A stretch of 64,000 nucleotides of DNA. Source: Romeriopsis navalis LEGE 11480 (GTDB lineage: Bacteria; Cyanobacteriota; Cyanobacteriia; Leptolyngbyales; Leptolyngbyaceae). The position numbers and the translations under genes are program-made. The stretch is from assembly GCF_015207035.1 (NCBI RefSeq), contig NZ_JADEXQ010000019.1, forward strand, positions 1 through 64,000, given 5' to 3'. The notes beneath the pieces are model-generated. The model had not been told where the DNA came from and searched no databases. It saw only the letters and a program-made list of their open reading frames with translations. How positions within the stretch are numbered: position 1 is the first letter of the stretch; the number at the start of each line of letters is the position of its first letter. Shown piece after piece: positions 42,514 through 58,330 of the stretch.

Positions 42514-42822
42514 GATGATCGGTTTCTCCTGATTCAATGCTATATTGGTATCCGACTCGGACCCACGCGGTCTTAACGCCCAAATCTTGTCAGGACCGGA
42601 AGGTAGCAGCAATACGGGATGCTTAGGACAGGCGTGGTATCCGGGTCTCCTAGTTTTAAATCAAATTGATCGCAACGCCAACTTGAGGAATCCGTCTCAG
42701 ACTTAAGCAATTCCCGCTGCGTTGACTCCCTAATATTGTGCGAAACCTTGAGAATTAATGGCCCTAGAATGCAAGAACTGCGCATGCTGGGACCATTTTT
42801 GTATTTCTTTAAGCCTGGCTGG

Positions 42823-52394: not shown

Positions 52395-52589
52395 TTAAGC
52401 CGAAAGCTCAACTTCGTCCTCGAAGAACCAAGTCGCAAATTTGTCTTCAAACTGCACCAGGACGCCGACGCCGCTGCCATCAGTCATCTTGAAATCCTTG
52501 ACTACGCCGCTTTGTCCAAGCTTGGCGACAACGGTTTGGGAAACCTTATCGCGTAAACGGCTGACTCGTACCTTTTGTCCAATTTCCAT
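52395..52589 (-). CDS. petP: cytochrome b6f complex subunit PetP
   Basis: The 64-residue protein matches PetP (DUF2862), an SH3-like accessory subunit of the cyanobacterial cytochrome b6f complex that affects the balance of linear and cyclic electron flow. Diagnostic segments are MEIGQKVRVSRLRDKVSQ, VVAKLGQSGVVKDFKMTDGS, GVGVLVQFEDKFATWFFEDE. No membrane helix is expected. The ATG at 52589 is chosen over a longer frame reaching 52601. It is transcribed divergently from the rimP operon. Confidence 0.85.
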   Translation of the reverse strand: MEIGQKVRVSRLRDKVSQTVVAKLGQSGVVKDFKMTDGSGVGVLVQFEDKFATWFFEDEVELSA

Positions 52590-52697: not shown

Positions 52698-52797
52698 TAC
52701 ACTGAGAAATCGGAAACGAGCTTCTGCTCCGTTTCTATAGAGAAATTCTCATGAATTTTTGTGTTTCATGTAGGAGTGGGATCGCCCACTTTTTTTA
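52698..52797 (+). promoter_or_regulatory. rimP operon leader with hairpin and T tract (candidate attenuator)
   Basis: A TACACT at 52698-52703 could be the -10 of the operon. Downstream come a bulged hairpin, GAAACGAGC (52713-52721) against GCTCCGTTTC (52726-52735), then AGTGGG (52775-52780) paired with CCCACT (52785-52790) and a run of eight T. That is an intrinsic terminator ending 14 bp before the rimP ATG. If transcripts start at the proposed -10 they must read through it. A short out-of-frame ORF from ATG 52751 overlaps the terminator. Confidence 0.6.
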
Positions 52798-52811: not shown

Positions 52812-53279
52812 ATGGCTCATCCGGTTATACCGCATGTATTAACGATCGCCGCCCCTGTGGCAGCGTCGCTAGGGTTAGCGGTGGAAAACGCTGTATTCCG
52901 CACCAATCAAAGTCCACCAGTGCTGCGCCTGGATGTCCGTAGTCTGACCGCCGATACGGGGTTGGAAGATTGTGAGCGAATGAGCCGGGCTTTTGAGCCG
53001 GTGCTCGATGAGTCGGAACTTTTCCCCGATGCTTATGTCCTAGAGGTTTCTAGTCCGGGAGTATCACGTCTGCTAGAGAGCGATCGTGACTTTATCTCGT
53101 TCAAGGGCTTTCCAGTGTCGGTGCAGACGGCAGAGGACTTTAAGGGGCAGCAGGAATGGCATGGAAATTTAATGGGACGGGACGACACAGTGGTCAAAAT
53201 CAGCCTCAAGGGTCGCACTGTGAAAATTCCGCGTGATGTGATTACTCAGGTGCAGTTGGAGGAAGGTCTTTCTGAGTAG
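52812..53279 (+). CDS. rimP: ribosome maturation factor RimP
   Basis: The 155-residue protein assists 30S assembly. Typical segments are PVAASLGLAVENAVFR, DCERMSRAFEPVLDESELF, AYVLEVSSPGVSRLLESDRD and FKGFPVSVQT, with an SH3-like C-terminal part. The ATG at 52812 is preferred over a start at 52761, whose extra residues would cross the leader terminator. It is first in the rimP-nusA-ylxR-infB order common to bacteria, with a 94-bp gap before nusA. Confidence 0.9.
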   Translation: MAHPVIPHVLTIAAPVAASLGLAVENAVFRTNQSPPVLRLDVRSLTADTGLEDCERMSRAFEPVLDESELFPDAYVLEVSSPGVSRLLESDRDFISFKGFPVSVQTAEDFKGQQEWHGNLMGRDDTVVKISLKGRTVKIPRDVITQVQLEEGLSE

Positions 53280-53373: not shown

Positions 53374-54849
53374 ATGTCAATCCAGTTTGCTGGACTACGC
53401 GAGATGCTCGATAGCATTAGCCGTGAGCGAAATTTACCTAAATCCCTTGTCCAAGATGCTTTGAAAGAAGCGTTGATGAAGGGATATGAGCGATTTCGTC
53501 GGACACAGCAAATTAATGATCATTTTGAAGAAGACTACTTCGAGAACTTTGAGGCGGAGCTAGATATTGAGGAAGAGGGTTTCCGGGTGCTCGCCGTCAA
53601 GCGGATTGTCGAAGAGGTCGAGAGCAAAGACCACGAGATTAGTTTGCGCGAAGTACAGGAGTTCGATCCGGAGGCCCAACCCGGGGTTGAAGTAGTCGTT
53701 GATGTGACGCCAGATAAGACTGAATTTGGTCGGATGGCGGCGATTCAGACGAAGCAGGTGTTGGCCCAGAAGTTACGTGATCAGCAGCGCAAGCTCATTC
53801 AAGAAGAGTTTCAGGAGCTGGAAGGCACGATCCTGCAAGCGCGGGTGCTGCGGTTTGAGCGGCAGTCGGTGATTATGGCCGTACAGAGTGGGTTTGGCCA
53901 GCCGGATGTTGAGTCTGAGCTGCTAAAACGCGATCAGTTGCCGAATGATAACTACCGTGCCAATGCCACATTTCGGGTTTATCTCAAGAAGGTGAGTGAA
54001 GGATCGCACCGAGGACCGCAGTTGTTGGTGTCGCGGGCGGATGCCGGTTTAGTGGTCTATCTATTTGAGAACGAAGTCCCCGAGATTCAAGAGGAAATTG
54101 TGCGGATTGTGGCCGTAGCGCGGGAGGCGAATCCGCCTTCACGCTATGTGGGGCCGCGCACAAAAATTGCGGTGGACACGATCGAGCGTGATGTTGATCC
54201 CGTTGGGGCCTGTATCGGTGCGCGGGGATCGCGAATTCAAGCTGTCGTGAATGAACTTCGGGGTGAAAAGATTGACGTAATTCGTTGGTCGCCGGATCCT
54301 TCAAACTACATTGCGAATGCGCTCAGTCCGGCGCGGGTGGAAGAAGTGCGTCTTGTGGATCCAGAAGAGCGTCAAGCCCATGTTTTGGTGCCAGAGGATC
54401 AGCTGAGCTTGGCGATCGGTAAGGAAGGTCAGAACGTGCGTCTCGCTGCGCGGTTAACGGGCTGGAAGATCGATATCAAAGACTTCGCGAAGTACGATCG
54501 TGAGGCGGAAGATGCGGCGATGGCTGAAGTGCTAGAGAAGCGCCAAGCGGAACAAGCCGAGCGTGACTTAGCCAATGCCGAAGAAGCGGCTTTAGAGGCG
54601 CAATATGCCGCTGAAGATGCTTTATGGGAGTTGGACCGAGTGGCAAAATTAGCAGCGGCAGCCCCTGCCGTGGCGGAGGAAGAAGTTGAGCTGGAGTCTG
54701 TGGACTCGGCTGACGTCGCGGTGGAAGAAACAGTAGAAGTCGCGGAGCTCGAGGCCGTCGAGACTGATGAAGCCGTTGAGTCAACCGCAGACACATCAGC
54801 GGATGAGGCGGTTGATGTGGATGAAGACGATGTGGCTGAGGCGGAATAG
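53374..54849 (+). CDS. nusA: transcription termination/antitermination factor NusA
   Basis: The 491-residue protein binds RNA polymerase and controls pausing and termination. The N-terminal domain has FAGLREMLDSISRERNLPKS and EVVVDVTPDKTEFGRMAA; then an S1 domain (about 135-205), KH1 with PVGACIGARGSRIQAVVNEL and KH2 with QLSLAIGKEGQNVRLAARLT. It ends in an acidic Ala/Glu/Val-rich tail (about 390-491), instead of the acidic repeats of enterobacterial NusA. GGAG lies 10 nt before the ATG at 53374; an in-frame TTG at 53368 is rejected. NusA may act on the leader terminator of its own operon. Confidence 0.92.
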   Translation: MSIQFAGLREMLDSISRERNLPKSLVQDALKEALMKGYERFRRTQQINDHFEEDYFENFEAELDIEEEGFRVLAVKRIVEEVESKDHEISLREVQEFDPEAQPGVEVVVDVTPDKTEFGRMAAIQTKQVLAQKLRDQQRKLIQEEFQELEGTILQARVLRFERQSVIMAVQSGFGQPDVESELLKRDQLPNDNYRANATFRVYLKKVSEGSHRGPQLLVSRADAGLVVYLFENEVPEIQEEIVRIVAVAREANPPSRYVGPRTKIAVDTIERDVDPVGACIGARGSRIQAVVNELRGEKIDVIRWSPDPSNYIANALSPARVEEVRLVDPEERQAHVLVPEDQLSLAIGKEGQNVRLAARLTGWKIDIKDFAKYDREAEDAAMAEVLEKRQAEQAERDLANAEEAALEAQYAAEDALWELDRVAKLAAAAPAVAEEEVELESVDSADVAVEETVEVAELEAVETDEAVESTADTSADEAVDVDEDDVAEAE

Positions 54850-54898
54850 ATTGCCGGTGCGCCGGGATCGCTGTGTTTTCCCAAGTGGATATAACGGG

Positions 54899-55225
54899 AT
54901 GGAGGATGAGGCATTGATCAAGAACCACCGTCGCTGCGTGAGCTGTCGTAAAGTTGCGCCGAAATCTGATTTCTGGCGGATCGTGCGGCAGCATCCTGGT
55001 CATCAACTTGTGTTGGATCAGGGGATGGGGCGATCGGTCTATCTCTGTCGAAATTGGGATTGTTTGAAGCTGGCGCAAAAAAAAGATCGACTTAGTCGAG
55101 CGCTCAAAGTAAAGGTTAGTACGGTTCTATACCAGTCTTTAGAGCAGCGTCTGGAATCACAGCAACAGACGTCAGCATCAGCAAATTTGCAATCGGGCGA
55201 TTGCGGTGTCACCGCAATCAACTAA
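54899..55225 (+). CDS. YlxR family RNA-binding protein (RnpM type)
   Basis: A 108-residue protein with the YlxR signature RRCVSCRKVAPKSDFWRIVR, where two cysteines sit close together, and GRSVYLCRNWDCLKLAQKKD. YlxR proteins bind RNA; in Bacillus this family modulates RNase P. The last 35 residues are a Gln/Ser-rich tail. It sits in its standard place between nusA and infB, 49 bp after nusA. Note that rnpB lies in the same window. Confidence 0.85.
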   Translation: MEDEALIKNHRRCVSCRKVAPKSDFWRIVRQHPGHQLVLDQGMGRSVYLCRNWDCLKLAQKKDRLSRALKVKVSTVLYQSLEQRLESQQQTSASANLQSGDCGVTAIN

Positions 55226-55390: not shown

Positions 55391-58330
55391 ATGAGCAAAG
55401 TTAGAATTTACGATCTGTCAAAGGAATTAAATCTGGAAAATAAAGATATCTTGACAATCTGCAGCCAGCTTGGTGTTGCAGCGAAGAGTCACAGTAGTAC
55501 GATCAGTGAAGAAGATGCAGCATCGATTCGTGCCGCTGCAGGCTCCTACAAGTCAACAACTGCTCCCACTGCCCCTTCCCCTTCTGTCCCCAAACCTCCG
55601 AATAATACTGAATCCTTGAATAAGCCGAAAAAGCAGCAAATTTTGCAAGTCCGACGTTCTCCTGATGCGCCGAACGCCAAGCCGAAGCGACCAGATGCGG
55701 GTGCGCCGGCAGCAGTGAAAAAGGCGCCGGCAAGGCCCGCGGCAGCGGCGCCTTCAGGCCAGGTTGCGCCGCCCGCGCCATCGGCACCCCCAGTTGCACC
55801 GAAGCCGTTGGCTTCTCCCCCACCACGCACAGAGCCGGCTGCCAAGGCTGCCGCTACAAAGCAGACAGTCGCAAAGCCAGTCGCACCACCGCCTCGTCCT
55901 GTCCTGAATAAGCCGCCAGCGATCGTTAAGAAAGCAGCTAGCGCAGAGACAGCCGCGCCAGCCAAGCCAGCCAAGCCGACGAAGCCAACGCCGGGTCAAA
56001 AGCCGACCCCGCGTCCACAGCAAATTGTGGAATTGCGGCGACCGAAGCCCGTATCGGAAACAGCGAAACCTACACCAATTTCCAATAAGCCGCAACGCCC
56101 GTCGGTGGCGAAAGCTGGCGGTGATGGTGCGGAGGCAACACCACCGAATAAGCCCGTTGCACCAGCGGCGGCCTTGATGGCGAAGCCGACGATGCCATCG
56201 CGCAACCGACCGCGTAAACCTTGGCAAGAGGAAGAGGATACTGATGCGCTAGAGAAGGCAAAAGCGGCGAACGCGAAAAAGCGTCGCGGGCCGAAATTCC
56301 AGGAAGCTGATTTGGAGATGGATGACGATCTCCTGGATGATGATGACGAAGATGCAACAGTGTCGCGTGAGCAGATGAGCTTGTCGCTGGCGCGACCGCC
56401 GAAGCCGAAGTCGATGCAGACGGCGAAGCCAGTGGCGGCAACGACTCAGCGCCGCCGTCCATCGATGGGCGGGAACAAGAAGAATAGCTATCGCGATCGC
56501 CGCGATCGACGTCATCAACAGGCGAACCAAAAGCAAGAGCGACCGGAGATTATTACCCTTACACGGGGGATGACGGTTCAAGAGCTGTCGCAGTTGATGA
56601 GCGTATCCGAAACGGAGATTATTCGGAGCCTGTTTATCAAGGGGATTGCGGCAACGGTGACGCAGACTCTGGATGTCGATACGGCAACTAAGGTTGCTGA
56701 GGAAATGGGCATTCTTGTTGATCACGTTGAGGAGCAATCTGCGGCCACGAAGGTCACAGAAATGCTGGATGCCGATGACCTAGAGAATCTCCATCGCCGT
56801 CCACCGGTTGTGACGATCATGGGTCACGTTGACCACGGTAAGACCTCCTTGCTCGACGCAATTCGGAAGACCAAGGTGGCTTCTGGGGAGGCGGGTGGAA
56901 TTACCCAGCATATCGGTGCTTACCATGTGGATGTTGACCACAATGGTGCGACGCAGCAGGTTGTCTTCTTGGATACGCCGGGTCACGAGGCGTTTACGGC
57001 CATGCGTGCCCGTGGTGCCCGTGTGACTGACGTTGCAATTCTTGTGGTTGCGGCGGATGACGGTGTGCAGCCGCAGACGATTGAAGCCATCAGCCACGCG
57101 AAAGCGGCGGGTGTGCCGATGATTGTGGCGATTAACAAGGTTGATAAAGAAGATTCTCAACCAGATCGTGTGAAGCAGGAATTGACTGAGCATGGTTTGG
57201 TGCCGGAAGAATGGGGCGGTGACGCAGTAATGGTGCCGGTGAGTGCCATTACCGGGCAGAACCTCGATACCTTGCTGGATATGATCTTGCTGGTTACGGA
57301 AGTTGAGGATCTGAATGCGAATCCTAATCGCTTGGCTAAAGGTACGGTCATTGAGGCTCACCTAGATAAAGCCAAAGGACCTGTGGCGACTTTGTTGGTT
57401 CAGAACGGGACCTTACATGTCGGTGATATTCTGGTTGCCGGTTCGGCCCTGGGTAAAGTTCGGGCAATGGTTGACGATCGCGGCCAGCGCGTGAAACAGG
57501 CTTCGCCGTCCTACGCGGTTGAGGTGTTGGGTCTGAGTGATGTCCCGGCGGCGGGTGATGAGTTCGATGTATATAACGATGAGAAGGAAGCTCGGTCGAT
57601 CGCGACTGGTCGCGCCGATGAGCAGCGTCAGTCACGCTTGATGGCGGCAATTTCCTCCCGTCGGGTTAGTTTGAATACGCTTTCTAGCAAGGCGCAAGAA
57701 GGCGATCTGAAGGAACTCAACATCGTCATGAAGGCGGATGTTCAGGGTTCGGTCGAAGCGATTCTGGGATCGCTGAAGCAACTCCCGCAAGGCGAAGTCC
57801 AGGTGCGTGTGCTCTTTGCCGCGCCGGGTGAAATCTCTGAGACGGACGTTGACTTGGCAGCGGCTTCCGAAGCGGTGTTGATTGGTTTTAATACAACCTT
57901 GGCTCCGGGTGCACGTCAGTCGGCCGATCGTTTAGGTGTGGATGTGCGTGAGTACAACATCATCTATGCGTTGCTGGATGATATTCAGGCGGCGATGGAA
58001 GGTCTGCTCGAGCCGGAACTTGTGGAAGAATCCCTGGGTTCGATCGAAGTTCGTGCGGTCTTCAGTGTTGGCAAAGGTGCTGTTGCTGGTTGTTATATCC
58101 AGAATGGTAAGGCGATTCGGAACTGTAAGGTGCGAGTGCGCCGGAAGGACGAAGTGGTCTTCGAAGGTGGTCTGGACTCACTCAAGCGGATGCGTGAGGA
58201 TGTCCGTGAGGTCAACTCTGGCTACGAATGTGGTGTCGGTATCGACAACTTCAATGCGTGGCAAGAAGGCGACATCATTGAAACCTATCGCATGGTGACG
58301 AAGCGTCGGACGCTAAGTATGTCGAAGTAG
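55391..58330 (+). CDS. infB: translation initiation factor IF-2
   Basis: The 979-residue GTPase brings initiator tRNA to the ribosome. Residues 1-55 form the IF2-N fold ([19 protein letters not shown]). A long Pro/Ala/Lys-rich region (about 60-370) follows, typical of cyanobacterial IF-2. A second IF2-N-like segment is at about 395-450 ([20 protein letters not shown]). The G domain begins with [19 protein letters not shown] (G1 from residue 478); [12 protein letters not shown] and SAIT follow, then the IF2 domains 2-4. All GTPase motifs are intact. A strong terminator lies 55 bp downstream. Confidence 0.95.

Follow-up and report, generated by a model that had tools for sequence, protein, structure and literature searches.

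The closest described relative of the element reported here is the rimP-leader, a transcription attenuator of Naville & Gautheret 2010 (PMC2965389). In the available text of that article it is a terminator hairpin with a G-rich 5' arm, a C-rich 3' arm and a T stretch, located in the 5' UTR of rimP, the first gene of a rimP-nusA-infB operon, at 4-130 nt from the gene; its arms read GGGc...gCCC, its stem sequence is unusually conserved, and no obvious antiterminator accompanies it. Firmicutes and Gammaproteobacteria are the groups named in the main text, which makes no mention of cyanobacteria. In B. subtilis, a terminator in the leader preceding nusA governs transcription into the gene, and PMC12288461 (citing Mondal et al. 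2016) describes autoregulation of NusA by NusA-stimulated termination in this 5' leader; it is the sole demonstrated feedback that we found in the literature for such a leader. At the S. agalactiae rimP-nusA operon (gbs0413-gbs0418), a short leader RNA and a long transcript arise from one start, with an intrinsic terminator 31 nt after it, and the authors propose feedback by NusA (PMC4448216). Rfam holds a rimP family at the same gene position (RF01770, a 102-position model). Finally, cyanobacterial actuatons are discrete short RNAs that double as the 5' UTR of a gene lacking a separate start site; the text of the paper describing them makes no mention of nusA or infB (PMC5386190).

We analysed a window of 64,000 nucleotides (the whole stretch of Romeriopsis navalis LEGE 11480 DNA under study), in which a preliminary description had placed a possible attenuator in front of rimP-nusA-ylxR-infB. 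Our main reading, to which we assign a probability of roughly 80%, is that positions 52698-52797 form a rimP-leader-type transcription attenuator with negative feedback by NusA. The prediction that an attenuator separates the operon promoter from rimP is strong, and NusA feedback acting at this leader is likely. The features are collected in Table 1.

Table 1. Positions of the rimP leader elements and neighbouring genes in the window.
Feature	Position	Strand	Basis
Operon promoter, -10 element TACACT	52698-52703	+	GCTACACT context; -10 conserved in cyanobacterial leaders
Predicted transcript start	~52710	+	Inferred from -10 position
5' leader hairpin P1, GAAACG-AGC / GCT-C-CGTTTC	~52713-52735	+	Computed fold and fold conservation
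Candidate second hairpin P2, CATGAA/TTCATG, directly 5' of the terminator	52750-52770	+	Pairing in relatives
Intrinsic terminator/attenuator, (AGGA)GTGGG-ATCG-CCCAC(TTTT) with seven-T tract	52772-52796	+	Sequence and comparison
rimP, first gene behind the attenuator	52812-53279	+	Pfam RimP_N, E 2.9e-12; DUF150_C
nusA, candidate feedback factor	53374-54849	+	Pfam NusA_N, KH_5
ylxR	54884-55225	+	Pfam YlxR, E 2.2e-22
infB (IF-2)	55391-58330	+	Pfam IF-2, GTP_EFTU, IF2_N
Small divergent gene, Tsr0524-like (described as cytochrome b6f subunit)	52395-52589	-	PF11061, E 1.2e-28

The core of the terminator consists of GTGGG (52776-52780), the loop ATCG and CCCAC (52785-52789), followed by seven T (52790-52796) and an A at 52797. 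The hairpin before rimP that had been proposed is real, but its T tract is one residue shorter than the eight claimed, and it ends 15 nt before the rimP ATG (52812), a start backed by the N-terminal M-x-H-P that is conserved in relatives. The stem, at about -10.7 kcal/mol, can lengthen to nine pairs (52772-52793), with some T of the tract able to pair with its A/G-rich foot. Upstream, the arms GAAACGAGC and GCTCCGTTTC form P1, and an A/U-rich stretch containing an ATG at 52751 separates P1 from the terminator. The 133-nt leader as a whole folds better than its shuffles (z = -3.5). This arrangement, with a terminator set between promoter and operon, is what an attenuator looks like.

Generic scans of the single sequence reveal little of this. 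Ten terminator-like sites were found in 10 kb, as compared to 10.0 expected in shuffles, such that the terminator alone does not exceed chance, and a scan for sigma-70-type promoters called none at the -10. The case for the predicted attenuator depends instead on comparison. Among rimP upstream regions of 131 cyanobacterial genomes, 116 carry the element GTGGG-N-C[C/G]...TTTT, and seven of the remaining 15 carry a variant form of it; in a few genomes no recognisable element was present upstream of rimP. In one family (leaders L188, L192, L224 and L248), AGTCGGT...ACCGGCT7 replaces AGTGGGT...ACCCACT7, a double change (GTCGGT/ACCGGC) that keeps the pairing; this natural compensatory variant would be useful for testing sequence versus structure. 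Three leaders of another family have a longer loop (L215 and L245, plus L240, which was read by eye). A strict pattern matched 46 of the first 57 leaders, versus 0.1 in dinucleotide shuffles. Across 58 whole genomes, GTGGGN3-8CCCACT6 occurred 45 times, in 42 cases ahead of rimP and on its strand, as judged by coordinate comparison, whereas a reversed control pattern matched once; in the 6.5 Mb R. navalis genome the strict pattern occurs a single time, at the rimP leader.

The cyanobacterial core is GAAGTGGG...CCCACT7ATTG. Across the 116 leaders GTGGG is 99% invariant, T5 is found in all and T6 in 99%, and most continue with ATT. Conservation of T5/T6 fits a role in termination rather than some other role for the hairpin. 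The promoter is conserved as well: a -10 of the form GCTAMACT (searched as GYTANRMT) lies 60-92 nt 5' of GTGGG in 91 of 116 leaders, versus 2.5 in shuffles, which bears out the earlier proposal that the -10 sits upstream of the terminator. On the other side, the distance from T tract to start codon has a median of 18 nt in relatives and is at most 25 nt in 75 of 116 leaders, leaving no room for a downstream promoter. A promoter located solely between terminator and rimP, the arrangement that the preliminary description had set against its own proposal, likewise finds no space in the 15 nt of R. navalis. With promoter, spacing, stem and U-tract all conserved, the central suggestion of an attenuator ahead of the operon is strongly supported. 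The preceding hairpin is also real: in 83 relatives, folds of the P1 segment gave a mean z of -2.3, versus -0.4 for an untranscribed control segment, indicating that P1 is kept as structure, not as sequence. By the same measure the terminator fold is strongly conserved (mean z -3.7) and P2 weakly so (mean z -0.9).

By position, stem, U-tract and spacing, the predicted cyanobacterial element belongs to the rimP-leader kind. Its 15-nt distance to the gene falls within the described range, a Pfam-supported rimP stands first in the operon behind a conserved promoter, and GGG and gCCC are present in the arms, although GGG is followed by A in R. navalis and by T in 77% of relatives, where the described form has C. 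Stem conservation is common to both; the cyanobacterial form differs from the rimP-leader in the available text by its promoter at a fixed 60-92 nt upstream and by its 5' hairpin. In contrast to B. subtilis, which belongs to another phylum and where the effect of NusA was demonstrated, feedback here is inferred, and cyanobacteria lack Rho. The predicted leader of about 87 nt exceeds the 31 nt seen in S. agalactiae. As with the actuatons, the predicted short RNA would correspond to the 5' UTR of a gene that has no separate start. RF01770 matched neither the R. navalis genome at its 47-bit cut-off nor the leader in a lax scan, and among 14 control genomes it matched only E. coli. We found no literature report of a rimP-leader-type switch in cyanobacteria, and a literature search under the cyanobacterial gene names slr0742/slr0743 returned no matches. 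This is a known kind of attenuator recorded in a new lineage.

Going by relatives and precedent, RNA polymerase would start at the site predicted from the conserved -10 and produce a leader with the P1 hairpin at its 5' end. At the GTGGG-CCCAC hairpin and its run of seven U, transcription would either stop, releasing a short leader RNA, or continue by read-through into rimP-nusA-ylxR-infB. The NusA that the operon encodes would stimulate the terminator, so that high NusA would lower read-through and low NusA would raise it. We regard NusA feedback as the best explanation because of the precedents in B. subtilis, S. agalactiae and E. coli and because NusA acts on cyanobacterial termination in vitro, where it stimulated both terminators tested with S. 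elongatus RNA polymerase (PMC13289151). Given its stem energy and its seven U, it is not obvious that the terminator is of the weak, NusA-dependent type. An additional promoter inside rimP could bypass the attenuator, comparable to the one that serves nusA in E. coli (PMC6511841).

Could the attenuator respond to something other than the level of NusA? RimP, a ribosomal protein, or cold-shock or other RNA-binding proteins that melt the hairpin could set read-through instead. The stem sequence is conserved beyond what pairing demands, suggesting recognition by a protein, and the E. coli operon is strongly induced by cold (PMC6511841). However, NusA is the one factor for which such feedback has been demonstrated in the sources found, and its in vitro effect on terminators extends to cyanobacterial polymerase, and we consider a different input unlikely. 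At the other extreme, the hairpin might be a plain insulating terminator that blocks stray plus-strand transcription and regulates nothing. It has the canonical form, with a U-tract, and its single-sequence signal lies within chance for the region. Yet transcription of the operon would itself begin upstream of it, at the conserved promoter, and no promoter fits before rimP, so a plain terminator would stop the operon itself; moreover, because the neighbouring gene is divergent, starting near 52589, no other plus-strand gene needs a terminator here. We therefore view insulation as very improbable.

More elaborate switching has also to be weighed. The pyrimidine strand TTTC just upstream, which doubles as the 3' strand of P2, could act as an antiterminator by pairing with the GAAG foot of the terminator's 5' arm; formation of P2 would then free the terminator. 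P2 occurs in about a quarter of leaders and is predicted unprompted by RNAalifold; across 28 leaders its pairs fill 92% of the cells, two pairs with double changes. Its covariation is far above that of slid partners but not above that of shuffled partners, and in the R. navalis leader P2 competes with an alternative hairpin at 52741-52760. The arm and the 28 nt preceding it had a complementarity score of 10.0, versus 7.96 (sd 0.30) after shuffling, and at least five arm-upstream pairs were found in 76 leaders versus 39 shuffled, including the suggestive CACTC/GAGTG and CACTTC/GAAGTG. Alternative pairing, for which the preliminary description had proposed aligning relatives, therefore stands out from shuffles, but upstream segments swapped between leaders scored 10.05, and this lack of leader-specific covariation reflects a terminator arm that hardly varies. 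The antiterminator pairs are also few and weak compared with the terminator; in R. navalis there are only six, half of them G-U or weaker. Both P2 and the antiterminator pairing are suggestive, and a multi-state switch of this design seems to us doubtful. Equally doubtful is the idea that cyanobacteria have added a regulatory layer to the ancient rimP-leader, in which P1, P2 and the antiterminator strand would sense a second input besides NusA. In several cyanobacterial families (e.g. L194, L198, L216, L218 and L235), a conserved ACATCATTTC or GCATCATTTC motif lies about 4 nt before GAAGTGGG and is able to pair with the terminator arm.

Other classes of leader were rejected. A leader-peptide (trp-type) attenuator finds no conserved reading frame: the short ORF proposed from 52751 does begin with an ATG, but it opens a long frame in R. 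navalis, and relatives have two or six codons or no ATG. For known riboswitches, T-boxes and ribosomal-protein leaders, the Rfam scan yielded sub-threshold chance matches only, with psbT-asRNA, L20_leader and STnc480 all below their gathering scores. Elsewhere in the window, at 42554-42650 (+), lies a bacterial small SRP RNA (RF00169, 63.8 bits, E 3.3e-12).

Beyond these genomes, a pattern scan over about 85,000 bacterial and archaeal genomes matched at least 80 loci, and among the matches listed, 35 of 80 lay immediately 5' of rimP and in its orientation. These rimP-linked listed matches came from Acidobacteria, alpha- and deltaproteobacteria, Nitrospirae, Marinimicrobia, Ignavibacteria, Bdellovibrio relatives and others; since the scan selected for the motif, they indicate where the motif is located and not how many phyla have it. 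In another class of the same phylum (L282-L298, most loci), rimP is preceded by a near-invariant terminator of the form GAACGGG-N4-CCCGTTC-T6, located 76-180 nt ahead of the match to the RimP domain. In E. coli, the leader carries GGGCtttaGGCCCTTTTTTT close to rimP. An extra sample was drawn from 40 genomes in which the pattern had matched away from rimP; of the 21 rimP loci found there, about 13 were preceded by a GC-rich hairpin resembling a terminator, mostly with GGG/CCC runs oriented one way or the other; this sample is small and uneven.

Taken as predicted, the element brings nearly all sampled cyanobacteria within the range of an attenuator known from Firmicutes and Gammaproteobacteria, in a form that Rfam's present model misses. 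For a terminator, it is unusual that the stem sequence hardly changes across many phyla, and what reads the stem can be tested directly. In S. elongatus, intrinsic terminators end only about 22% of transcription units (PMC13289151). The added switch, if true, would bring a second input to this operon in a Rho-less phylum where, in the species studied, only a minority of operons are intrinsically terminated.
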